Shown here: one piece after another, positions 17,991 through 35,154 of the stretch | Position numbering within the stretch: the stretch's first letter is position 1 | Layout: each line of letters starts with the position of its first letter | IMG/VR virus record: IMGVR_UViG_3300044949_001473 | Span: 1-35,629 of that record | Length of the DNA stretch: 35,629 nt | Reading direction: 5' to 3' (one strand) | DNA from: a virus | The notes under the pieces: model-generated | The model's database searches: none | Seen by the model: only the letters and a program-made list of their open reading frames with translations | What the model was told of the DNA's origin: nothing | Position numbers and translations under genes: made by a program

Positions 17991-20021
17991 TTATCTATAA
18001 ATTCCAGTATATATATCGTCATTAGCTCCGCCTACAAACCATTCTGGTCCCTTATACATGTTGCCATCAGTTTTATAGGAATCTTTAGCGTTTGCACCAA
18101 TAACATCATAGTCTATAGCTTTTAATGATCTATTAATTTGTCTTGCTAACATATTTGCTATTAATAATGAACTATATCGGTCTTTTCTCATTCGGCCTTT
18201 TTTGCCTCCTGGAAGTTTGGTTTCTGGGGTATCCCATCGATCTCTAGCATTTGGACCATTACTTGTTTGAGTCATTACTATGGTTGTTAATTCATTTTTT
18301 AGTTCTTCTATTTCTAGAATACATTCACTTAAACTATCATATAAGGGACTAAGATCATCTGTAAAGATATCTTTTCCTTCGCTTTCCATAGCTAAGCCTA
18401 AAGTTAAATTATCGAAAGATGGGAATAATAAAGCCTTGTCTTCAAAATCTTTCCTTAATCCGTGATTAGCCTGACTTGTCCATTCTGCTTTGGCGAATTG
18501 TACTAATTCTAATATATGAAGACCGGGTTGATTGTCTGTATCTTTACCTTTATCTTCATTAATGATTGGCCAGATTAATTGTTCTCCTGGCTCTAGTTTT
18601 CCTGGGTCGTGCAGGGCTTCTTCTATAGCAACACCGCCGCCCTGGGCGTCCATTCCTATTTTTATAGGATTAAAGGTTTTCATTAAATTTCTAATTTTTC
18701 TTGTACAAAAACCATAAAAGTCATAGTCCTGAATCAGACCCTTTTTAAGTCTTTCTTTAAAGTTATTTCTATTTGTTGTCCAACAATAGACTATTCTATT
18801 ATGATCAGGATTTACTTCTATAATAACAATACTAAAATTATCTTGTTCACTCGCTGGGTCAATACCATAAATGTATTGTTTTTTAGGGTCTCCTTTGATA
18901 GTAGCGTCAAACAATAAAGGTTTATCATTAATGATGATGTTCGTATTGGAAACAACACAATTTTCTATCAGACTTCTACGGAAAAATCCTTCGCTATCTT
19001 TTACGAAACATGCGGCATATTCCATATTATAAATACCAGTATGGATTGTCGCTTTTGCTCTGCTGACTTGTTTATCATCCATGAATCCTTTAGGAATTAA
19101 TTCATAGGGTATTCTAATTATACTATAATCTCTCCAATTAAAATTACTAGGAACCTCTCCTTTGAATATTTCTTCTAATTTATGATTATCTCCTTTGCTT
19201 TCTATAATTGCTTTATATCTTTTCCAATAGCTTGCAAAATGTTTAAAGTCATAGTCGGCAGTTCCAGATATAATTGCTTGATTACCCATTTTAGTATTTA
19301 ATTCTTCCAAATCATCATTCCATATACCAGCCTGAATCATGGCTTGTTTACGAGCTTGTTCTTTAACGTTTTGTATAGGACTGGCGCTAACAGCAGCGAA
19401 TCCAGACACAACTGTTTCATAGATATCAGGACTTATAGATGCGAATTCGTCTGCTATAATAATATGCGCTCTAAGACCTCTGATTTTACTACCATCGCCC
19501 ATAGGAATAGCTATTGTCCAACTGTCTCCAAGTCTCATAGTACATCTATCAACATCTCTTCTTGGGCCATCATCATTACCACTAAAAATACTTCGTAATA
19601 TTGGACTATTTCTCCAAATAGTTTCCATATATTCGAATATAATTTTGCTCTGTCGAAATGCTGCTCCAACAACAACAATTTTTGTTCCTGGGAAAAATGC
19701 GCACCTTAATACAGAATACAATGCTAACAAAAAACTTTTACCCCAACCACGGCTTGCTATATACATAGGAAACGATCTTATCCAAAATTCTTGTATAATA
19801 GCAATTTGTATTGGATGTAATTCAATATTGAATAATAGTTTGCATGTTGTACCAATATATTTAGGATCTCTTAAAAGCTTTAATAGATGAAGATCAGGAT
19901 TTTCTATATCCCTCTCTTCTCTGTGTATCATGGGATTATCCACCACATTAAGTATGGATAAATCTCCTAATCCTAGCCAAGCATCATCAAAATTAGCAAT
20001 AATATTCTGATTATTTGGCAT
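17991..20021 (-). CDS. terL: Terminase large subunit
   Basis: A 676-aa DNA packaging motor. The ATPase part shows a Walker A loop 'ASRGWGKSF' (about residues 89-97), a coupling/adenine region 'GAAFRQSKIIFEYM', and a Walker B 'HIIIADE' (186-192). The nuclease part has 'YGIDPASEQDNFSIVIIEV' with D388 and 'IGMDAQGGG' with D458; 'RKDRYSSLLIANMLA' near the C-terminus supplies the probable third acidic residue. It cuts concatemeric DNA and pumps it through the portal encoded next. Its start overlaps the end of the CxC protein gene by 11 bases. The length is larger than the usual 450-600 aa, due to a long linker around residues 215-300. Confidence 0.95.
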   Translation of the reverse strand: MPNNQNIIANFDDAWLGLGDLSILNVVDNPMIHREERDIENPDLHLLKLLRDPKYIGTTCKLLFNIELHPIQIAIIQEFWIRSFPMYIASRGWGKSFLLALYSVLRCAFFPGTKIVVVGAAFRQSKIIFEYMETIWRNSPILRSIFSGNDDGPRRDVDRCTMRLGDSWTIAIPMGDGSKIRGLRAHIIIADEFASISPDIYETVVSGFAAVSASPIQNVKEQARKQAMIQAGIWNDDLEELNTKMGNQAIISGTADYDFKHFASYWKRYKAIIESKGDNHKLEEIFKGEVPSNFNWRDYSIIRIPYELIPKGFMDDKQVSRAKATIHTGIYNMEYAACFVKDSEGFFRRSLIENCVVSNTNIIINDKPLLFDATIKGDPKKQYIYGIDPASEQDNFSIVIIEVNPDHNRIVYCWTTNRNNFKERLKKGLIQDYDFYGFCTRKIRNLMKTFNPIKIGMDAQGGGVAIEEALHDPGKLEPGEQLIWPIINEDKGKDTDNQPGLHILELVQFAKAEWTSQANHGLRKDFEDKALLFPSFDNLTLGLAMESEGKDIFTDDLSPLYDSLSECILEIEELKNELTTIVMTQTSNGPNARDRWDTPETKLPGGKKGRMRKDRYSSLLIANMLARQINRSLKAIDYDVIGANAKDSYKTDGNMYKGPEWFVGGANDDIYTGIYR

Positions 20022-21067: not shown

Positions 21068-21329
21068 ATTTTTTGCTCGCTACTATTTTTAGAAATACTG
21101 ATTCGTATAAGTGTTCTAATCCTTTAATCATTTTATGGTGCTGATAACATAAAGTTATTCCATTATCAATATTAAATCTTAAACCAATATTATGTGCCCA
21201 AGTTTTGATATGATGAGCGTTTAATTTTCTTTTACAATTACAATTTGGCCATTGACATTTAAAGTTATCTCTTTTATAAACATCTTGTCTCCATCTTTTA
21301 TAAATAGGATCGTTAAAGTTTCTATTCAT
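21054..21329 (-). CDS. HNH endonuclease
   Basis: A 91-aa protein with zinc-ligand Cys25 and Cys30 ('FKCQWPNCNCKRK'), the 'LNAHHIKTWA' His pair (39-40), Asn in 'FNIDNGITLC' and His64-His65 in 'CYQHHKMI'. This is the full beta-beta-alpha-metal core with C/H zinc ligands. Small free-standing HNH proteins near the terminase often assist DNA packaging in phages such as HK97, but they can also be homing nucleases; its tight overlap with both neighbours favours the packaging role. The gene overlaps gmd by 8 bases. Confidence 0.88.
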   Translation of the reverse strand: MNRNFNDPIYKRWRQDVYKRDNFKCQWPNCNCKRKLNAHHIKTWAHNIGLRFNIDNGITLCYQHHKMIKGLEHLYESVFLKIVASKKYGKS

Positions 21330-22314
21330 ATCTGCTAGACTCTATATCAGATACCACCATATCCTCTACAAGTTGATTGAATGATATTTTTGGTTTCCAT
21401 CCTAAAACTTTAAGTGCTTTTGTAGAATCCCCTTTTAAAAATTCTACTTCAGCTGGTCGGTATAATTCTGGATCAATTTCTATATAGTCTAAATAGTTTA
21501 AATTAAGAAATTTAAAAGCTTTTTCTAGAAATTCTTCAACCGTGTGTGATTGTCCGGTACTAATAACAAAATCATCTGGCACCCCATTACTTAGCATCAA
21601 TTTCATAGCTTCAACATAATCTTTTGCGTGTCCCCAATCTCTAACAGCTTTAATATTTCCTAGTTTTAATTTTTGGTCTGTTTTTTTATTAACAAGACGT
21701 CCTATATATTTTGTGATTTTACGAGTAACAAAATTTTCCCCTCTTCTTGGACTTTCGTGATTAAATAATATTCCGCTTGTAGCATATATATTATATGCTT
21801 CTCTGTATATTTGTACCATTCTGTGACTAGATAATTTAGATACAGCATAAGGACTTTGCGGTAAAAATGGAGTAGTCTCATTTTGATATTTTCCGCCATC
21901 ATCATCCAATAAGTAGTTACATCCAAACATTTCGCTGGTACTAGCTTGATAGAATCTTGTTGTTGATGAAAATTTTCTAATATTTTCTAGAATGTTAATA
22001 ACTCCAACAGCATTAATCTCAAATGTTGTTGTTGGTTGTTTAAAACTAGTAGCAACATGACTCTGTGCTGCTAAATTATAAAAATGTTGTGGCCTATACT
22101 TAGTTATAATATTTACACAATCAGCAGGATCTGTTATATCAAACTCTTCCATTATAAGTTTTGGATGTTTTAATAAGTGTTTAATTCTCTGAAAATTATT
22201 GTTACTACTACGTCTATACAGTCCAACAACATTATATCCGCTATGAAGCAATGAATCTGCTAAATAACTTCCGTCTTGACCAGTTATTCCTGTTATAGCT
22301 GCTGTTTTAGTCAT
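21322..22314 (-). CDS. gmd: GDP-mannose 4,6-dehydratase
   Basis: A 330-aa extended short-chain dehydrogenase that converts GDP-mannose to GDP-4-keto-6-deoxymannose, the first step to GDP-fucose, rhamnose or perosamine sugars. It has the NAD(P)-binding 'GITGQDG' (9-15), 'VVGLYRRSS' with the two Arg that favour NADPH, 'NLAAQSHV', catalytic Thr126 and Glu128 in 'STSEMFG', and Tyr156/Lys160 in 'YAVSK'. 'NHESPRRGENFVTRKI' and 'RDWGHAKDYVEAM' are family-specific substrate segments. The length is normal (Escherichia coli enzyme 373 aa, phage forms shorter). It lies inside a DNA-processing operon and overlaps both neighbours. It may alter host surface glycans or nucleotide sugars; no epimerase/reductase partner is in the window. 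Confidence 0.95.
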   Translation of the reverse strand: MTKTAAITGITGQDGSYLADSLLHSGYNVVGLYRRSSNNNFQRIKHLLKHPKLIMEEFDITDPADCVNIITKYRPQHFYNLAAQSHVATSFKQPTTTFEINAVGVINILENIRKFSSTTRFYQASTSEMFGCNYLLDDDGGKYQNETTPFLPQSPYAVSKLSSHRMVQIYREAYNIYATSGILFNHESPRRGENFVTRKITKYIGRLVNKKTDQKLKLGNIKAVRDWGHAKDYVEAMKLMLSNGVPDDFVISTGQSHTVEEFLEKAFKFLNLNYLDYIEIDPELYRPAEVEFLKGDSTKALKVLGWKPKISFNQLVEDMVVSDIESSRYE

Positions 22315-24580: not shown

Positions 24581-26515
24581 TTAGTATGGTGATAATAATA
24601 CATACACAGTTTGAGGATCAGGATTGAATGTAATAGAAGGTTTAATAAAATTACCTGGTTTCCAAATAATATTTGTAAATGGAAGATCACGAACATATTG
24701 CATAACATTATTAGAATTATTTCTAAAAATTGCGAATTTAAACTGAGTTTTAATCCAATTTCTAACGTCTGTTGTGGTATAGTTATTAAAATCAATAATA
24801 TTGATTAATGAATCAATAGGAAGACTATCTGTGCGATAAGCTATTGCATTAACAACAGGGAATACTCTTCCATCAGGATGTGATTTTTTAATATAATATA
24901 TTTTATATTTTGTATAATGGATATACGAATTAAAGTCTGGCTGTCTTGTTGGATCAGCACCATTATATGGATTAACTAATAATCTATCAAATAATTGAGG
25001 ATCTCTATACATTAAATTAATAACATCAATTGAGCATTCAATTTTATCAACATCAATATTAGATCCTCTAATAGTACTACCCATATTAATAGTGCCAAGT
25101 GTGTTTGCTGATATGGCTGGACTGAAGGAGCATGTCTGACTTGGTTCACAACAATATATTGGGGTTGGTGTAGGTAAAGGGCTTCTTGTTGGAACTGGTG
25201 TGGTTTCTGATGGACAGATACTCTCTCTAGTAAATTGACCATTAGAGAACGTGTAAGTATAAGTTCCTAGGCATGTTGTTGAAGAGCATGTATAATTATA
25301 TGCTGTAACATCTATAATTGGGAAATTATGAGATCCTAATAATGTTCCTCCAATGTTAATAAATGAATAACGATCTTGTGGATCTGTTGTCATTATACCA
25401 CCCTTATAGGCATACATGGTTATTCTTACATTACCATTTAGTCTACCAGCATACCAATTAGCTTTGGTTACTAGACTAACTTTATTAACCTCATAATTTG
25501 TTTTAATAGCTTTGAGATCAACTAAAACTTCTTCATTTCCATCCAAACCGGTATTATCTCCAGACCAATAAAAATACGGAGCATCATCTTCTCCCTGTCC
25601 TCCGCTGTTGGATGGACAATATCCTAAAGTTTTGCTTCTAAAAGGATAAGATATATATGTTTCAGTATCTAAATCTCTTCCTGCTCCTGGCAACATGGTA
25701 TATGAAAATACTAAATAGTCTGCACCTGGTAATCGTGGTGGATTTCCGACTCCTGGTTTAGATGGAGTTAATGTAGGAGTTGGTGTTGGGGTTAATGAGG
25801 ATGTTGGAGTAAAACTAGGTGTAGGAGTAGGAGAAGCTCCAGGAGATTTAGTTATTGTTGGAGTATTAGTAATTGTTGGCGTTATAGTAGGAGTAGGTGT
25901 CAATGTTCTAGTAACTGTTGGAGTAGGAGAAAAACTCGGAGGAGGAGTTTGTGTTGGTGATGGACTATTAGTTATTGTTGGCGTAACTGTTGATGTAGGA
26001 GTAACAGTTGGAGTAGGAGACGGAACAATACATCTATAAACACATAAATTAGCAGATACGTCGCAAGTATCAAGATTATGTGAAATGTTAAGACTAACCT
26101 GTCTGGGTATCATAACAGGATTAAAAGATCCAGAGACTTCATCTGTATCAGAAGATCTTACGTATGGATTAATAACGGTTACAGGCACAGTTCCGCAAAC
26201 TGTTTCTATCTGAACATTATCTGGTATAACTTGGCATGGAAGATCAGGATCATCTGTAGGAGGAACATCGCAACAGTAAAATAACCTAAACTCAACATAA
26301 GCTACTTCTGAATTTAAAACCAACGAAGTGGAAGTTTCTAAATTTTGTATATATGCAATATCCGTCCAGTCCATTATGGTTTCATCAGAACTATTAAAAA
26401 ATTTAACCTGTGCCTTTAAACAGTCTCTTATTTCTGTTATTGTAATTTTTAACAAAAGAACAGAATCTTGTATATTAGACTCTAATAAATATGGTATATT
26501 ACAGAACGATGGCAT
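24581..26515 (-). CDS. Mosaic Pro/Thr-linker protein with TerD-like inserted domain
   Basis: The ATG at 26515 aligns with the start of its paralogue and gives 644 aa; a TTG 45 bases upstream is less likely. Residues 1-165 share the paralogue's N-terminal domain ('DIAYIQNLETSTSLVLN', 'VRSSDTDEVSGSFNPVMIPR'). A Pro-Thr-Ser linker of about 110 residues follows. Residues about 280-440 are an inserted domain with 'PGAGRDLDTETYISYP', 'YFYWSGDNTGLDGNEEVLVD' and 'NWYAGRLNGNVRITMYAYKG', resembling the Asp-rich Ca-binding fold of TerD-like proteins. After a second short linker the last 170 residues again match the paralogue ('LPFTNIIWKPGNF', 'VYVLLSPY'). There is no signal peptide. It is probably a virion-surface or adhesin-like protein; the function is unproven. 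Confidence 0.78.
   Translation of the reverse strand: MPSFCNIPYLLESNIQDSVLLLKITITEIRDCLKAQVKFFNSSDETIMDWTDIAYIQNLETSTSLVLNSEVAYVEFRLFYCCDVPPTDDPDLPCQVIPDNVQIETVCGTVPVTVINPYVRSSDTDEVSGSFNPVMIPRQVSLNISHNLDTCDVSANLCVYRCIVPSPTPTVTPTSTVTPTITNSPSPTQTPPPSFSPTPTVTRTLTPTPTITPTITNTPTITKSPGASPTPTPSFTPTSSLTPTPTPTLTPSKPGVGNPPRLPGADYLVFSYTMLPGAGRDLDTETYISYPFRSKTLGYCPSNSGGQGEDDAPYFYWSGDNTGLDGNEEVLVDLKAIKTNYEVNKVSLVTKANWYAGRLNGNVRITMYAYKGGIMTTDPQDRYSFINIGGTLLGSHNFPIIDVTAYNYTCSSTTCLGTYTYTFSNGQFTRESICPSETTPVPTRSPLPTPTPIYCCEPSQTCSFSPAISANTLGTINMGSTIRGSNIDVDKIECSIDVINLMYRDPQLFDRLLVNPYNGADPTRQPDFNSYIHYTKYKIYYIKKSHPDGRVFPVVNAIAYRTDSLPIDSLINIIDFNNYTTTDVRNWIKTQFKFAIFRNNSNNVMQYVRDLPFTNIIWKPGNFIKPSITFNPDPQTVYVLLSPY
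25750..26025 (-). repeat. Pro-Thr-Ser coding low-complexity repeat
   Basis: An array of imperfect ACW-CCW-type codon repeats encodes the linker (T-P-T-P, T-I-T-N-T-P) of the 644-aa protein. Similar arrays occur at 27140-27435, 30060-30150, 31550-31660, 32640-32765 and 34060-34250 in neighbouring genes. Such tracts can expand, contract and recombine between genes. Confidence 0.85.
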
Positions 26516-26517
26516 GG

Positions 26518-26607
26518 TTATGGCACTATAATTATGGTTTGTATTGTTGAGTAACAACAATCATTATCTGGCACTGATTGAATCTTTAATTGTTTATCGT
26601 TATTCAT
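26518..26607 (-). CDS. Possible 29-aa micro-ORF
   Basis: In the gap between the two mosaic genes, ATG at 26607 opens MNNDKQLKIQSVPDNDCCYS and a further nine residues, stopping two bases before the downstream ATG. An AAAGAG site lies nine bases ahead. The stop-start arrangement suggests it could couple translation to the 644-aa gene, which itself has no clear binding site. Coding status is uncertain. Confidence 0.35.
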   Translation of the reverse strand: MNNDKQLKIQSVPDNDCCYSTIQTIIIVP

Positions 26608-28736: not shown

Positions 28737-30005
28737 CTAATTATTATTAATATTATTACAGGTTTTGCAAAAGCCTTCTGCTATTGACGCCGGATTAATT
28801 AATGGAGTTCTTCCATTGTCTACTGTTATTATTCCTGATTCTCTTGCTCCTGGTGATACTTCTTCGTAGCCGAGATCTTGTAAGTATCCAATTGATAAAG
28901 GAGTAATGATATTAGCACGATTATAAGTTTTACCCATTAATTCATTAACTATTCCATTATAATCTGCTCTTCTAAATTGGGTAGATCCTGAGATTACGAT
29001 TCTTGTTGGAACATAATTATTTTGCCAATGAACAAGAGCTGATCCTGTACCGCCACTAGTTTCAACAGGAACAGCTGGTCTAGTTAACGGATTAGTATTA
29101 TTAGCTATTCTATTATATCCCCTAATCGTATCAGGATGGGTCGATTGTGTTAATCTGGGTAAAGATCCTGTAAATGGTTGTGGTTCTGGCGTCAAAACAA
29201 ACTCATCCCAAACTCCTATTCCTAGAGCGTGTCCAAGTTCGTGTGTAAGTATTCTTACCCAATCACTATATGTATAAGAAGAACCTAGTTGACCAATAAA
29301 ATGTTTAGAATTAAGTTCTAAACGAAAAAATTGATAAAATTTAAGGACTGGATCGTCTGAACTAGAAATACCGGATTCATATGGAGCTGCTCCAGCCAAC
29401 CATCCAGCATTTTCATTTTTCTTTGTATAAGATATAAGGGATAATCCATTAAAATTTAATTCAGTATTTGTTATATAGTCTAATATGTATTGTGGATATC
29501 TAATATAATTATTCCATATATTTGCCGCTTCGATTAGTGCGTTTCTGTATGTAACATCTTCAGTAGGAATTAAGTCAAATGATGATATATCGAATATATG
29601 AAATCTAGTGGTAACGGTTAATGTTGCTACTGATGATGTTAGTGTTTGTTGAAATATGTTGCTGTTAAGACCATAGTTTCTTCTTTGATAGGTTATAATG
29701 CATCTATATTCTCTATTGTTGTTAGTAGATGAGGCATTAATTCTTAATGTGTCAGAATATACAGCATTTCTTGTTGTTCCTGTCCATGTATATGACAATG
29801 CTGTGTTTTTAATTTTTTTAGTGGTGATTGATGTCCATATCCCGCCACTAACTCTAGATTGCCAATCATATATTATTCTATAGTCATATTGGATAGGTCC
29901 AGATGATGGAGTAGGATCACCTATTCTATCAACAGCAACTGTGAAAGATGTTTTTGCTCCGCTTCTTACGGTTATTGATACTGGTTGAGTAATAATAGAT
30001 GCCAT
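28737..30005 (-). CDS. Ig-like plus leishmanolysin-like zinc metalloprotease
   Basis: A 422-aa protein. Residues 1-132 look like an immunoglobulin-type beta sandwich ('ITQPVSITVRSGAKTSFTVA', 'YRCIITYQRRN'). Residues about 140-385 form a metzincin: zinc site H255-E-L-G-H259-A-L-G-I-G, a possible third ligand His326 in 'GSALVHWQNN', and Met357 in 'NELMGK' as the Met-turn. The spacing between second and third His, the 'HW' and 'ELM' motifs and the 'ITPLSIGYLQDLGYE' tail match the leishmanolysin (M8) pattern. It likely cuts a protein, perhaps a host surface or virion protein; no signal peptide is present, so it may travel on the virion. Neighbours are PT-rich proteins and a protein sharing the junction sequence. 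Confidence 0.82.
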   Translation of the reverse strand: MASIITQPVSITVRSGAKTSFTVAVDRIGDPTPSSGPIQYDYRIIYDWQSRVSGGIWTSITTKKIKNTALSYTWTGTTRNAVYSDTLRINASSTNNNREYRCIITYQRRNYGLNSNIFQQTLTSSVATLTVTTRFHIFDISSFDLIPTEDVTYRNALIEAANIWNNYIRYPQYILDYITNTELNFNGLSLISYTKKNENAGWLAGAAPYESGISSSDDPVLKFYQFFRLELNSKHFIGQLGSSYTYSDWVRILTHELGHALGIGVWDEFVLTPEPQPFTGSLPRLTQSTHPDTIRGYNRIANNTNPLTRPAVPVETSGGTGSALVHWQNNYVPTRIVISGSTQFRRADYNGIVNELMGKTYNRANIITPLSIGYLQDLGYEEVSPGARESGIITVDNGRTPLINPASIAEGFCKTCNNINNN

Positions 30006-30016
30006 ATTTTATCCCT

Positions 30017-30361
30017 TTATGGTATGTTAAATATTAAAGAGGGTATGTTGTATGACTGAGATGGTGTTGGAGTAAAAACAGGAACACTAGGAGTAGGACT
30101 AAAAACAGGATTAGCTGTAATTTGTGGAGTTGGTGTCGGTTCTGGTGGAGGACACTCATGAACAGATTCATTATTGTCTAGTGCAAAATTAATTAAGTCT
30201 TTACCAGAAGTTCTATCGTAATCTTTAATTTCATTATTAATTTTATTTAATCCGCCTCTATTAGCTTCATTTTTTTTAGAGCTACTAGAAGGACTATTAA
30301 AAGAACCTAATGAATTATTCACTCTTTGATTATAAAAATATGTTGGTTTGTATATGCTCAT
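30017..30361 (-). CDS. Small protein with Pro/Thr linker and IFNIP tail (114 aa)
   Basis: MSIYKPTYFYNQRVNNSLGS, then a Lys/Asn-rich helix, 'CPPPEPTPTPQI' and a Pro/Thr linker ending 'PTPSQSYNIPSLIFNIP'. It has the same end as three longer proteins nearby, without their Cys-rich part, so it is a reduced member of the set. Overlap with the upstream gene is ATGA, and its end is followed by the metalloprotease gene with a CATACCATAAAGG junction. Probable structural or attachment role. Confidence 0.7.
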   Translation of the reverse strand: MSIYKPTYFYNQRVNNSLGSFNSPSSSSKKNEANRGGLNKINNEIKDYDRTSGKDLINFALDNNESVHECPPPEPTPTPQITANPVFSPTPSVPVFTPTPSQSYNIPSLIFNIP

Positions 30362-30765
30362 GGTCTTGCTATTCCTGGTACTGGTACTGTTGTTGGATCA
30401 TTAGGATTTTTGGATGGACATAATACTCCGACTACAATTTTTATTGGACCTTTTGCTCCATCTATAGCTTTTCTTCCTTCACTACCTGGTTTTAAAATAT
30501 TGTCTATAGCTTTTTTATAGACCTCAGCAGCTTTTTCTGGAGGTATCCCATTTGGAAATTGTCTTTCTAAAGGTTTTAATAACTTGTCTAGAGCTGTGCT
30601 TTCATAAAGCACTATTCCTCCTTGTACAACTCTTAATACTCTATCTTTGTCTTTTCCTGGTCCTGTTGGAGGATCTTTACAGTTATTATAGTCATTTTCA
30701 TTTTTTTCAACAGCATCTTCTAATTTATCATTAGGAATATCATTACAATTATTAGGTATAGGCAT
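30358..30765 (-). CDS. Hypothetical 135-aa protein
   Basis: Not recognised. A hydrophilic N-terminal 40 residues with two Cys (MPIPNNCNDIPNDKLEDAVE), then 'RVLRVVQGGIVLYESTALDK' and an alpha-helical, Lys/Glu-rich middle ('PPEKAAEVYKKAIDNILK'), ending in a beta strand 'PIKIVVGVLCPSKNPN' and a Pro-rich tail. A good GGAG site with an eight-base spacer precedes the ATG. It overlaps the next gene by 4 bases. The Pro-rich C-terminus 'TTVPVPGIARP' recalls the PT-tails of its neighbours. Confidence 0.65.
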   Translation of the reverse strand: MPIPNNCNDIPNDKLEDAVEKNENDYNNCKDPPTGPGKDKDRVLRVVQGGIVLYESTALDKLLKPLERQFPNGIPPEKAAEVYKKAIDNILKPGSEGRKAIDGAKGPIKIVVGVLCPSKNPNDPTTVPVPGIARP

Positions 30766-30770
30766 TATAA

Positions 30771-31097
30771 TTACTCCGTAATGTATGTATTTAAATATAG
30801 ATTATATACCATACCAGTTTTAAAGTTATCTACGCCTAAACGCCTATTATTAGCTGGTGAATAGTTTACTCCGAAAGCTAATTCGTCAGGATAGCTAAAA
30901 TTACTAAGATATTTATCTTGTTGATCAAGCTGATTCAAAACGTTTTTATCAATATCATTTCGATCATAATAGATTCTATTATTATTACAAAAATATGTGT
31001 TCGTCGGAGGAAACGTGGTAGAACTTAGTTCAAAAACATCATAAGGGTCTGTTGCTGTTAGACCTGACGGCGGAGTTTGGGGTTTATATGTGGCCAT
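30771..31097 (-). CDS. Hypothetical 108-aa protein
   Basis: The ATG at 31097 is chosen because AGGA lies eight bases before it; longer in-frame starts exist upstream but lack a site. The protein, MATYKPQTPPSGLTATDPYD, is Tyr/Asn/Asp-rich with 'TYFCNNNRIYYDRNDID' and 'FGVNYSPANNRRLGVDN', probably a small structural protein. It lies 28 bases after a candidate late promoter and is the first gene of the group that includes the metalloprotease. Confidence 0.65.
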   Translation of the reverse strand: MATYKPQTPPSGLTATDPYDVFELSSTTFPPTNTYFCNNNRIYYDRNDIDKNVLNQLDQQDKYLSNFSYPDELAFGVNYSPANNRRLGVDNFKTGMVYNLYLNTYITE

Positions 31098-31124
31098 AAT
31101 ATATTTCCTATAAGGCATATCACT

Positions 31125-31136
31125 ATATTTATACAC
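31125..31136 (-). promoter_or_regulatory. Candidate phage late promoter with T4-like TATAAATA core
   Basis: The minus strand reads GTGTATAAATAT, containing TATAAATA exactly, and lies 28 bases before the ATG at 31097. It shares GTGTAT with the motifs at 1583, 12624 and 17978. It could drive the protein block from 31097 down to the metalloprotease and beyond. Confidence 0.55.
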
Positions 31137-31174
31137 TACATTTTGTAAATTTTTAAGATATAACTAAATTTTGA

Positions 31175-31480
31175 TCAGTTTTTAATTCTGAAGCCTGGGC
31201 GAGATTTCCATATATCATCTTGCCATCCTATTAAATTAGCAATAGGATTTGCATTTAATCTATTATTAGTAAAAGTTTCTTGATTATTTTGTGATGATAA
31301 TATTTTACTTTCGTTTAAAAATCTATCATTTGTAAAAGACGATGGAACATTAGATAGTGGTAAATTAGTATCAAAAAAATAACTATCTTTATTGTTTATA
31401 TAGTAGTTATCATTAAATGTTTCCCAAATAGCATTGGGAAGATTGTATGCTGTTTCTGTTTTAATGTTGTATATAGGCAT
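31175..31480 (-). CDS. Small paralogous protein, NLPNA-W-TFN family (101 aa)
   Basis: MPIYNIKTETAYNLPNAIWE, 'TFNDNYYINNKDSYFFDTNL' and a C-terminal 'GWQDDIWKS'. It is the partner of the 100-aa protein at 33707-34009, sharing Y-N-I, 'Y-N/D-L-P-N-A-x-W-x-T-F-N', 'P-L-S/T-N-V' and 'N-D-R-F'. AAAGGA precedes the ATG. Each copy directly follows a Cys-rich protein with the IFxIP tail and probably acts with it, as a chaperone or structural partner. I recognise no known family. Confidence 0.75.
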   Translation of the reverse strand: MPIYNIKTETAYNLPNAIWETFNDNYYINNKDSYFFDTNLPLSNVPSSFTNDRFLNESKILSSQNNQETFTNNRLNANPIANLIGWQDDIWKSRPGFRIKN

Positions 31481-31491
31481 ATAAAATTCCT

Positions 31492-32571
31492 TTATGGTAT
31501 GCTAAATATTGATTGAGTATTGCCACTATAGTACGAAGACGATGGAGTCGGAGTTACCGAAGGAGTGCTAGAACTTGGAGTTGGAGTAACTGATGGTGTG
31601 GAACTTGGTGTTGCTGAAGGAACAGGAGCCGATGGTGTAGGAGTTGGAGTTACACAATCTTCTGGTCTCTCATCTTCTGGTAAACAAGAACACTCGCATT
31701 CTTTTCTTGTTGCATATCCAGACCCTGAAGCACAATTAGAATTACACTCATAACAAAATGAACGGCCTTGATAACTAGAACATAAGTATATCGCATTGAT
31801 ACATGTTGTCTCTATGGTTCCATTCTCATTAGTAACATCTGAGCAAACAATATCAAGACTTTGTTTATGTGCTAATGCTGCCGCGTATCCTGCTTTGCCT
31901 GGTCCAAAAATAACTCCATTATAGTATGTTGGCTCTTCTGAATTTAAATTTTCAATCAAAGCATTGTCGTATGTTGTTAATACTAAATCTCCACATTCAT
32001 CTGGATTAAAATCTTTTGAGCATCCAACCCACCACTTGTTACAATTGCATTCGTCTTCTAATGGCAGAGGATGAAATTCATAGTTTTGCAAAAATAGCAG
32101 TGGATCATCTGATGCTCCACCAATATTTCCTAAAACTCTATTTAAATAATCTAATATTGCTGGACTAATAATAAACTCTGAATCATAACTTGCTCTACTG
32201 GCCAATTGACCTAGTTTCATAGTTTCGATAAATGTTAATCTGGCACAAAATGGTACGTTCTGTCCTGGACCAGGATTTTTTGGAACAACACAATATGGTT
32301 GTCTAATTTCTCCATTTTGTAATTCGTCACAAGGAATATAGTCTTCCCATTCTCTAGCAAGAGGTGGTAAGAAAACATCAGGATCCAATGTTCCTTTTAC
32401 TGGTTCTTGAGGTATTCCAATACCAGTAATAGGATCTTCTATATCAGGATAAATAAACCATACACAAATAGGATCATGGTCAACATTTGGTGGCTCGTTC
32501 TGCTCTGGTGGAGGAACATGTGATTTTGGAACTGGAGCAAATATTGGTTCGTAATCTGGATCGTATCCCAT
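31492..32571 (-). CDS. Cys-rich protein with Pro/Thr linker and IFSIP tail (359 aa)
   Basis: It begins MGYDPDYEPIFAPVPKSHVP and has many Cys: around 'CNCNKWWVGCSKD', and a dense C-terminal cluster 'SFCYECNSNCASG' followed by 'RKECECSCLPEDE'. Then comes a Pro-Thr-Ser linker ending 'SSSYYSGNTQSIFSIP'. It is paralogous to the 371-aa protein at 32595: both have R-x-P-Y-C, C-N-K-W and a closing 'C-x-x-C … EC-x-x-SC' pattern. There is no signal peptide, which is surprising for such a Cys-rich protein; it may bind metal or become oxidised after lysis. Probably surface-exposed. AAAGGT precedes the ATG. Confidence 0.75.
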   Translation of the reverse strand: MGYDPDYEPIFAPVPKSHVPPPEQNEPPNVDHDPICVWFIYPDIEDPITGIGIPQEPVKGTLDPDVFLPPLAREWEDYIPCDELQNGEIRQPYCVVPKNPGPGQNVPFCARLTFIETMKLGQLASRASYDSEFIISPAILDYLNRVLGNIGGASDDPLLFLQNYEFHPLPLEDECNCNKWWVGCSKDFNPDECGDLVLTTYDNALIENLNSEEPTYYNGVIFGPGKAGYAAALAHKQSLDIVCSDVTNENGTIETTCINAIYLCSSYQGRSFCYECNSNCASGSGYATRKECECSCLPEDERPEDCVTPTPTPSAPVPSATPSSTPSVTPTPSSSTPSVTPTPSSSYYSGNTQSIFSIP

Positions 32572-32594
32572 AATGTGACCTTTCTGATGATCTG

Positions 32595-33710
32595 CTAGGG
32601 TATATTAAATATTGATTGAGACACTCCGTACTGATAAGATGATGTTGGTGTTGGTGTTAATGCTGGAATACTAGAACTAGGAGTTACAACCGGAGTACTA
32701 GACGGTTGTGGCGTAACAGTAGGAGTTGGTGTTGGCTGATTTGTTGGAGTAGGTGTTGGAGTTGCTCCACAAGATTCTTCACATTCTTCTATTGTGTCAA
32801 AAAATGGTCCAGAATCACACTCTGTACAAACTTGTGTGCAAATATCAAATGTTCCGATAACAGCTCCATTTTCGTCAATCATCTCTTCTGTAAGACAAGT
32901 AAATTTCAGATTCTCAGCCATTAATTTATTTTTATAGTTTAAAGCATCTTGGTATCTGGCAAAAGATTTTATAACTGAATCAGGGTCGTATGGAAGCTCC
33001 ATGCCTTCATCTGGAATTACATTAGTATTATTACTATTGCCAAGTTGTGGCATTAAATCATTGTCACAATAGATATCCCATTTATTACATATTGAACAAT
33101 CAATTTCCTGTTTGCATTTAGAAGAGGTTGAAATATCTGTAAAGTATACTTCTATCATGGATGAAAGTTGTGGTATGCCTTCTTCATCTATAGGTGTTGT
33201 TCCAATGAATTGTATTTCGTGATCCTCTGCTAATCCGCAGGTTAAAAGTTCTCCACTTTCTTTACCTGTCAAAGGATCATTAGTTTTAAGAATAATACAA
33301 TATGGTCGTTTGATACAGCCAACATCTATGTCTTCTTCTGCAACATTAAATATTTGGCTACATGCTGTTATTGTTGGTGTTAAATATGCTAATAAAAGTC
33401 CAGCATCTAAATTATTTTGATTAAGTAAATATTCTAATTGTTTATAATCATTTAAAATAATACCAATAGCTTCATCTCGTGTTGTTTTTATAGCTCCATT
33501 ACTTGGTAAAGCAATTATTTCAGTAATACCATTTATTGTTAATGGTCCATAAATTAATCCAACAGGAATAAATCTGTCTAGTTCAATAGAGTATGTCATT
33601 CTGCCGTGCAGAATTACACAGTCATTTGGTCCTATGTCGGGATCGATATAAGGAAATCTTTTTGGTGGTACGGGCGGTGTGCCGAATGTTGGTCTATAGG
33701 AAGAACTCAT
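32595..33710 (-). CDS. Cys-rich protein with Pro/Thr linker and IFNIP tail (371 aa)
   Basis: The ATG at 33710 overlaps the stop of the 100-aa gene (ATGA), so I prefer it over a start ten codons upstream. The N-terminal half is beta-rich (MSSSYRPTFGTPPVPPKRFP, 'ITEIIALPSNGAIKTTRDEA'). The middle has 'CIKRPYCIILKTNDPLTGKE' and 'CSICNKWDIYCDND'; the Cys-rich end is 'CTQVCTECDSGPFFDTIEEC' followed by EESCG. A Pro-Thr linker follows, ending 'TSSYQYGVSQSIFNIP'. It is paralogous to the 359-aa neighbour. The small 'C-x-x-C … F-x-T-x-E-E-C-x-x-x-C' unit resembles a compact disulphide or zinc module. Confidence 0.75.
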   Translation of the reverse strand: MSSSYRPTFGTPPVPPKRFPYIDPDIGPNDCVILHGRMTYSIELDRFIPVGLIYGPLTINGITEIIALPSNGAIKTTRDEAIGIILNDYKQLEYLLNQNNLDAGLLLAYLTPTITACSQIFNVAEEDIDVGCIKRPYCIILKTNDPLTGKESGELLTCGLAEDHEIQFIGTTPIDEEGIPQLSSMIEVYFTDISTSSKCKQEIDCSICNKWDIYCDNDLMPQLGNSNNTNVIPDEGMELPYDPDSVIKSFARYQDALNYKNKLMAENLKFTCLTEEMIDENGAVIGTFDICTQVCTECDSGPFFDTIEECEESCGATPTPTPTNQPTPTPTVTPQPSSTPVVTPSSSIPALTPTPTSSYQYGVSQSIFNIP

Positions 33711-34009
33711 GATTTTATAGGTCTCCATGTGGCTTTCCAAATGTTATCTGGCATAGTTAATAAATCTGCTAATAAATTTTCATCAATACTATTATTTGTA
33801 ACATCATCAACATTAGGATCAGAAGAAAATATTAAACTGCTATTAGCGAACCTATCATTACTAAATAAAGATAAAACATTAGTTAGCGGTAATTTTGTTT
33901 TAAATTTATACGATTGTTTTTTATTAATAGAATATGTATTATTGAATGTTTTCCATGTTGCATTGGGCAGATCGTACGATAGTTGATTTTGAATATTAAA
34001 TATTGCCAT
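33707..34009 (-). CDS. Small paralogous protein, NLPNA-W-TFN family (100 aa)
   Basis: MAIFNIQNQLSYDLPNATWK, 'TFNNTYSINKKQSYKFKTKL' and 'LSLFSNDRFANSSLIF', ending 'DNIWKATWRPIKS'. It is clearly related to the 101-aa protein at 31175-31480 along its length. Its ribosome binding site AAGGTG is embedded in the junction after the upstream gene's stop, and its own stop overlaps the next start (ATGA). The repeated pairing with an IFxIP-tailed protein suggests a two-gene cassette that was duplicated. Confidence 0.75.
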   Translation of the reverse strand: MAIFNIQNQLSYDLPNATWKTFNNTYSINKKQSYKFKTKLPLTNVLSLFSNDRFANSSLIFSSDPNVDDVTNNSIDENLLADLLTMPDNIWKATWRPIKS

Positions 34010-34020
34010 TATAATACACC

Positions 34021-35154
34021 TTATGGTATGATAAATACTGATGATGGAGCAGCATAATATGTTGACGGGGTGGGTGTTGGAAACTGTATTTCTGGAGAAT
34101 TTGATGGTGTGGGACTTGGTGTTGGGGGCAAGTCTATTATGTCTTTTGTTGGCGTTGGCGTGACAGTTGTTGTTAATGTTGGAGTAGGAGTTACTGATGG
34201 TTGTGGTGTTGGGGTCGGAGTTGGAGTACTAGTAGGAGTAGGAGTACAACATTTTTCATAATCCTTTTTAACTTTTGGACAATTTACAACAGTAGCAGAT
34301 GTTATTCTGCCGCCACCAAAAGGATGTTGCATTCCAGCATCGAAAGGAATATTAGTATTAACTGGAACTCTTACGGTCCATATTACCTGACCATGAGCAT
34401 TTACATAAGTATCTTTAAAAGTATATTCAATGTAATCTTGACCATTTATGGTAACACATGATGCTCCTGTTATTAAAATAGCGTGTCGTGGAACTAAAAT
34501 ATTGGCGCAGTCCAATGGTTGTCCTGGTCTTTGTGGCTTAATCCATCCGTTGGGTAATGTATAAACGTATGGTGGTGCTATTCCGGCACCATTTTTTATA
34601 TTTTCATACCACTCGGCAAAATCTGGTGGAAAATCTCCAACGCTAAATCCACTCATTATTGATCCAAGTTTACAAACTGCTGTTGCTAATTGTTTATGAT
34701 TTAAAAATCTTTGACTATTAAACCTATAACCTATTTTAATTGTGCATTTTGAAGGATCACAATTACCATCATTTGATTGAACTTCATTGTCACATTTTAC
34801 AGGAATATCAAGACCCCTAGCAGAGTCTATGAGAAATTTTAAGGTTTTAAATGCTCTTGTTGCTCTTTGTATAAATTCATTAGCATCAAAGTTTGGATCA
34901 GCTATTTTTTTACATTCAGCGATTTTTTGTATAAATATAGCAGAGTATTCATTTAATCTCGTGTTTTGTATTTTGGTTTGATTACATGCTAAAAAATTAC
35001 TATAGTCTATATTAATATCACAGGATGATGCTATAGACTGTAGCAGAGTGTTTGTCATGCAGGTTAATTGGTCAATATCGTCTATTCTTTGGTCGATATT
35101 TAATTCGTTTGTGTTATCTTTGCAGTTTTCGTTATTAAAATTTTGGCATGACAT
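34021..35154 (-). CDS. Cys-rich protein with Pro/Thr linker and IFxIP-type tail (377 aa)
   Basis: MSCQNFNNENCKDNTNELNI begins a helical N-terminal part with several Cys ('LTCMTNTLLQSIASSCDINI', 'FLACNQTKI'). The middle is alpha/beta ('FPPDFAEWYENIKNGAGIAP', 'RHAILITGASCVTINGQDYI', 'DTYVNAHGQVIWTVRVPV'), where 'PRHAILITGASC' followed by 'G-Q-D-Y-I' and 'VPV' recalls a papain-like C39 or bacteriocin-type fold, but the catalytic Cys/His arrangement is not convincing. A Pro-Thr linker of about 70 residues follows, ending 'STYYAAPSSVFIIP'. The C-terminal tail is shared with three neighbours; the rest is not. It overlaps the upstream gene by one base (TAATG). Confidence 0.75.
   Translation of the reverse strand: MSCQNFNNENCKDNTNELNIDQRIDDIDQLTCMTNTLLQSIASSCDINIDYSNFLACNQTKIQNTRLNEYSAIFIQKIAECKKIADPNFDANEFIQRATRAFKTLKFLIDSARGLDIPVKCDNEVQSNDGNCDPSKCTIKIGYRFNSQRFLNHKQLATAVCKLGSIMSGFSVGDFPPDFAEWYENIKNGAGIAPPYVYTLPNGWIKPQRPGQPLDCANILVPRHAILITGASCVTINGQDYIEYTFKDTYVNAHGQVIWTVRVPVNTNIPFDAGMQHPFGGGRITSATVVNCPKVKKDYEKCCTPTPTSTPTPTPTPQPSVTPTPTLTTTVTPTPTKDIIDLPPTPSPTPSNSPEIQFPTPTPSTYYAAPSSVFIIP

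Follow-up and report, generated by a model that had tools for sequence, protein, structure and literature searches.

Four proteins encoded by a freshwater tailed phage end in nearly the same short tail, in which a Pro/Thr linker and a Tyr residue precede a closing [I/V/L]-F-x-[I/V]-P at the stop codon. Looser versions of the tail recur on several protein families of related phages, in which the linker and tail have been gained and lost. The reading of these sequences that we favor, tentatively and with somewhat less than even confidence, is that the tail is a C-terminal docking peptide on a flexible Pro/Thr stalk, which would tether diverse proteins to a common site on the virion.

A shared C-terminal tail on four phage proteins

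The stretch of DNA analysed here (the window) is a whole 35.6-kb IMG/VR record, a tailed-phage fragment from freshwater, and its minus strand carries nearly all of the likely genes. Tail and fiber genes lie on one side of the terminase gene (17991-20021; annotated phage terminases are distant matches), and on the other side, at 24-35 kb, is a block of genes whose products have no Pfam matches. An earlier note on this DNA described four proteins of the block as sharing a tail after a Pro/Thr linker and a Tyr, and we confirmed this in the sequence, with all four genes on the minus strand. A Cys-rich protein of 377 amino acids (34021..35154) ends in STYYAAPSSVFIIP, with the linker at about 34060-34245 and the tail, YYAAPSSVFIIP, at 34021-34059. 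Another Cys-rich protein (32595..33740; the probable start is an ATG near 33710, giving MSSSYRPTFG) ends in SSYQYGVSQSIFNIP, with the linker at about 32637-32756 and the tail, YQYGVSQSIFNIP, at 32595-32636. The Cys-rich protein of 359 amino acids at 31492..32571 ends in SSYYSGNTQSIFSIP (linker at about 31534-31644; tail YYSGNTQSIFSIP at 31492-31533), and a protein of 114 amino acids with the N-terminus MSIYKPTY, at 30017..30361, ends in SQSYNIPSLIFNIP (linker at about 30053-30151; tail YNIPSLIFNIP at 30017-30052). The four bodies had also been taken to be different; they do represent three independent families, but the 31492 and 32595 proteins are paralogues that are 34-42% identical.

Matches to [IVL]F.[IV]P number four in the 11,008 amino acids of the window's proteins; all four sit at the exact C-terminus, none is internal, and each follows the Pro/Thr linker and Tyr. 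From composition, approximately 0.002 such C-termini would be expected among 33 genes (P ~4e-13), and only two of the 4,770 distinct ORF ends in the loci that we fetched match the pattern, one of which belongs to an orthologue. At the DNA level, a 20-nt consensus of the tail, with up to three mismatches allowed, finds exactly the four sites versus 0.07 expected. Moreover, the window's tails agree at third codon positions more than codon usage would lead one to expect; every one of the seven Ile codons is ATA, whereas ATA accounts for 47% of usage. Because the third positions are alike and the tailed genes lie only 11-23 nt from the next start codon, it is likely that the window's tails share some nucleotide ancestry, and their exact likeness may stem in part from recent duplication.

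The tail in related phages

At least 595 related terminase stretches are present in IMG/VR viral contigs, and related contigs are as long as 244 kb. Most proteins of the block turn up solely in a near clade of three genomes (G053, G052 and G056) that are 92-94% identical at gene 23087, the neighboring gene through which we reached them. A direct search for relatives of the 32595 protein in phage records and viral contigs found none because the block is clade-specific, and alignment searches with the 34021 and 30017 proteins returned the same near-clade records and nothing further. Relatives of the terminase were present in three genome bins from three different groups (Alphaproteobacteria, Flavobacteriales and SAR202), and thus a host could not be inferred from them. 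(A protein at 21322-22314 that starts TAAITGITGQDGSYLADSLL and resembles GDP-mannose 4,6-dehydratase is encoded beside the terminase and is retained throughout the group. Searches for RNA families and tRNAs found none.)

Outside the window, the strict motif occurs in one orthologue only, as TIFNVP. A looser form, usually comprising a Pro/Thr linker, then a Tyr 8-15 residues before the end, hydrophobic residues and [I/V]P at the stop, is found in about eight protein families of the relatives, including a tail-fiber protein and a 29-residue mini-gene product. The earlier note had regarded confinement to this genome, taken together with absence of the proteins from virions and envelope, as evidence against a tag; strict F-x-I-P is indeed limited to the genome and one orthologue, whereas the looser form recurs across the group.

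Relatives of the 34021 protein are 47% and 40% identical to it. Its G053 orthologue keeps the linker and tail (SYNINPTIFNVP) with a linker of different length, whereas a different Cys-rich stretch closes the G056 orthologue, which has neither; a G056 relative of the 31492 protein likewise ends without linker or tail. As two of the tailed proteins have relatives that are without them, the linker and tail form a module that is gained and lost. The three orthologues of the small 30017 protein end in YTNPITITEIP, YTLPNLVNNIP and YGPISAIINFVP; the Tyr and [I/V]P are constant and the middle residues and linker length vary. Even within the G053 genome the tails differ (IFNVP, ITEIP and FTIVP). Across genomes the codons of the tail vary while the Tyr and [I/V]P stay, and the tails of other families and of the mini-gene use different codons.

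In distant members of the group, G019 and L033 encode small Pro/Thr proteins that end in SYTIELLSAMVGLIP and SYSFGPLSFTLNKSVP, from genes that immediately precede the same terminase cluster, some 530 bp upstream of the same gene. The looser tail is also present on a G015 protein and on a second G019 protein; tails from distant members include those of proteins of 690 and 886 amino acids, which end in TYYFIAQREINYIP and YQYITLPSICTNLIP. The tail-fiber protein of L410 and L445, which starts in the manner of phage tail fibers (FRKG...W...SGEPGYD), ends in PPYMGGQKYNFIP. Other Pro/Thr proteins of these phages end a few residues past the linker with no such tail, and therefore the tail is not just how every such linker ends. 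Genes ending in [I/V]P numbered 12 of 244 in the near clade and 13 of 1,912 in distant group members (a few of these 13 are probably chance matches). Of these, 11 of the 12 and 9 of the 13 have a Tyr placed 8-15 residues before the end, compared with 82 of 232 and 615 of 1,899 among the remaining genes (about 33%); note that these counts include orthologues, and so are not independent, and come from simple longest-ORF gene calls.

A search of viral contigs with the strict DNA pattern of the tail gave 105 matches with no genuine tail among them. A gapped pattern (linker, Tyr and [I/V]P-stop) gave at least 119 stretches, of which the real ones were the known members and the L410/L439/L445 fiber. 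(In distant members, the DNA preceding the terminase cluster, at L032 1-4800 and L033 1-1600, contains short ORFs only, with recurring near-identical peptides such as MSTKKN and GEVFPxKIFSFGMIFAGG; these regions are probably non-coding repeats.)

A mini-gene that is almost tail only

A fifth tail, overlooked earlier, is at the end (CCYSTIQTIIIVP) of a predicted, unannotated ORF of 29 amino acids on the minus strand at 26518..26607, whose product, MNNDKQLKIQSVPDNDCCYSTIQTIIIVP, would be almost tail only. Counterparts occupy the same place in G053 (MQNNIKIQSNEDDCCYSLTQTIIIIP) and G056 (MQNNIKIQSDPDDNCCYSLTQIITIIP) with different codons, such that the mini-gene is kept in three genomes. Because its start and end both resemble those of a Pro/Thr protein of 546-570 amino acids in the relatives (start MEVSNNIQTQSQPD, end CCYTLGNIIDFTIVP), the predicted product resembles a version of that protein from which the body is missing. 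Just after the mini-gene, at 26515, is an ATG (MPSFCNIPYLL) that is probably the start of the 24581 ORF.

Bodies, neighbors and an N-terminal motif

The body of the 34021 protein has no Pfam or PDB match. We entertained the idea that it is a papain-like peptidase (Cys32, His224 and HAILITG), and found no support for it: there was no profile or structural match, the model was of low confidence, and only Cys32 and His224 are conserved in three sequences. AlphaFold models were of very low confidence; the low-confidence AF2 model of the 31175..31480 protein is disordered save for short strands at residues 3-5 and 10-12 and one helix at 77-83. The protein at 28737-30005, which has no Pfam match, contains a zinc-protease-like motif, HELGHALGIG, after an N-terminal part that appears Ig-like by eye. 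The motif is kept in G052, G056 and the distant G025; one G053 copy has HELGY instead and a second G053 paralogue is intact. A second kind of Pro-ended terminus, PG-[I/V/L]-x-RP, is found in all near-clade genomes in the family of a small protein of 135 amino acids (30358..30765, minus strand) that ends in PVPGIARP; its relatives end in PGVARP, PGLSRP and PGIFRP. In G052, a remnant of the start of a 27956-like gene (MYIYHSSILNKSQN) lies between two genes (L332 11245-11319), which suggests gene loss in the block.

Many of the block proteins, and hardly any from other regions, start with M-x-I-[F/Y]-N-I or a similar sequence (MAIFNI, MPIYNI, MNIYNI, MSIFNIN, MAVFNT, MIYNI or MSIFVPN). In the window, a tail-like MAIFNI begins a protein of 100 amino acids (33707..34009, minus strand) and MPIYNI begins its paralogue of 101 amino acids (31175..31480, minus strand). 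A regular expression for the motif, composed after the sequences had been seen, matched 20 of 214 near-clade genes (several of them orthologues or paralogues) versus about one expected, and 9 of 1,509 genes in distant members, which is near background. Since the codons vary, it is the peptide that is conserved. What ties this motif to the C-terminal tail is resemblance only.

Discussion

A body, a flexible stalk and a short hydrophobic tail with a Tyr and a terminal Pro make up the anatomy of a tethered docking peptide. The earlier note had taken the tail for a tag, borne on a flexible stalk, that serves in docking or assembly, and this reading is partly supported by the differing bodies, the gain and loss of linker and tail, the retention of Tyr...[I/V]P and the near tail-only gene. 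We infer that the tail binds something, and the likely partner, given that the group's tail also sits on a tail-fiber protein, would be a repeated virion protein. In such a scheme, unrelated accessory proteins of a variable block upstream of the terminase genes would carry the tail, one repeated virion site (in the capsid, neck or fiber base) would capture them, and the stalk would present the Cys-rich body at its opposite end. Contacts would be made by the Tyr and the closing hydrophobic-Pro, leaving the middle free to drift with the partner, and the N-terminal M-x-I-[F/Y]-N-I might be the same plug at work from the opposite terminus. Against this scheme stand the dissimilar tails within G053, the restriction of the strict motif to one clade, the possible recent duplication of the window's tails and the anchor-bearing L445 fiber discussed below. 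We consider doubtful the more general proposal that one plug, at the N-terminus (M-x-I-[F/Y]-N-I) or the C-terminus ([I/V]-F-x-I-P), loads swappable unrelated proteins onto a common virion socket, with bodies recruited by gaining stalk and plug.

The likeness of the window's tails at the nucleotide level raises the possibility, which we consider rather unlikely, that the Pro/Thr linker and tail are a 3'-end cassette. Duplication and gene conversion would have carried it from gene to neighboring gene, and descent would have kept it there although it does little or nothing specific. The paralogy of two of the proteins, the excess of shared third positions (including the uniform ATA codons), the 20-nt consensus that picks out the four sites, and the relatives without linker and tail all fit such a history. 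It accounts less readily for the 47%-identical G053 orthologue, which retains F and [I/V]-F-x-[I/V]-P though its linker differs in length, for the different codons in other families and the mini-gene, and for the survival of Tyr and [I/V]P through large divergence. The fiber protein bears on another alternative. The L445 fiber has a typical N-terminal virion-anchor sequence, and therefore its C-terminal tail would be distal rather than the anchor; a ligand role is thus conceivable. That the tail is a distal ligand for the host surface or for another displayed protein, with the N-terminus attaching to the virion, would suit both the tail at the far end of this fiber-like protein and the N-terminal motif of many block proteins, which could be an anchor. 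Nevertheless, we regard it as unlikely, as the 34021 protein has the tail and no N-terminal motif, and a receptor ligand is more usually a folded domain.

A signal that sorts proteins to an export machine of the host, which the earlier note had also suggested, or to one for surface attachment, could explain a short C-terminal element on a stalk-like linker in Cys-rich proteins. In the ends, however, we saw neither a membrane-spanning hydrophobic segment nor a charge cluster or basic end, and neither LPXTG nor PEP nor any other known sorting pattern; moreover, lysis is the usual route by which phage structural proteins leave the cell. That part of the earlier note thus found no support, and we consider such a signal highly improbable. 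Specifically, an LPXTG or PEP-CTERM signal is at odds with proteins that stop right after F-x-I-P, and a type IX secretion CTD (about 70-100 residues) with a C-terminal end that is linker plus tail and not a folded domain. It is scarcely credible, and we disfavor the idea, that SIFNIP is a chance reading of a DNA element such as the following gene's promoter or ribosome-binding site. The tail DNA does include an AT-rich run, lies directly before the next gene and in three of the four cases is followed by a stop codon that merges with the ribosome-binding region. Even so, promoter-like sites are no more frequent than background, none overlaps the four tails on the coding strand, and in relatives other codons encode the peptide pattern. 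Release at a C-terminal Pro has been described as inefficient (PMC7246954), the four genes stop 11-23 nt before the next start and Pro also ends other block genes, all of which would accord with Ile-Pro-stop slowing release so as to tune coupling to the next gene. We nonetheless think such a role very unlikely: it leaves the Tyr and hydrophobic residues 8-15 positions upstream unaccounted for, the tail is not always near a start in distant members (L032 and L033), and the Pro-ended 30358 gene has a 4-nt overlap.

If the tail is a docking peptide, it can be set beside several known systems. Phage tail fibers and receptor-binding proteins have a conserved N-terminal anchor, one attachment module on different bodies; the tail is similarly one module on different bodies, but is at the opposite terminus and much shorter. 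As with LPXTG, PEP-CTERM and the type IX CTD, it is a C-terminal element past a flexible region, common to unrelated proteins, yet it has none of their defining elements. The N-terminal adenovirus fiber peptide FNPVYPY, which docks in the penton base and so fixes the fiber to a capsid site (PMC3457955), is like the tail in being short, conserved and terminal and in containing Phe, Asn, Pro and Tyr. It is, however, N-terminal and on one protein of a eukaryotic virus, whereas the phage tail is mostly C-terminal, on many unrelated proteins, with a putative partner. In T4 Hoc the binding domain is C-terminal, and in the related phage PG7 a binding domain is N-terminal on a second protein (PMC10385173). 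Hoc thus parallels the tail in having a conserved C-terminal end and variable bodies, and PG7 parallels the two-ended motif that we suspect in the window's phage. We rejected a Hoc-type domain for the tail itself: the capsid-binding domain of Hoc is folded and comes after Ig-like domains, unlike a peptide of only 11-15 residues after a low-complexity Pro/Thr linker. Homology of the tail to the adenovirus peptide or to Hoc is neither shown nor claimed.

The block proteins of this aquatic phage group match no known family. Should the tail prove to be a docking plug, it would provide a sequence handle for the accessory proteins of a large and mostly uncultured group of aquatic phages, and a minimal peptide of ~12 residues could be used to attach foreign proteins to the phage particle.
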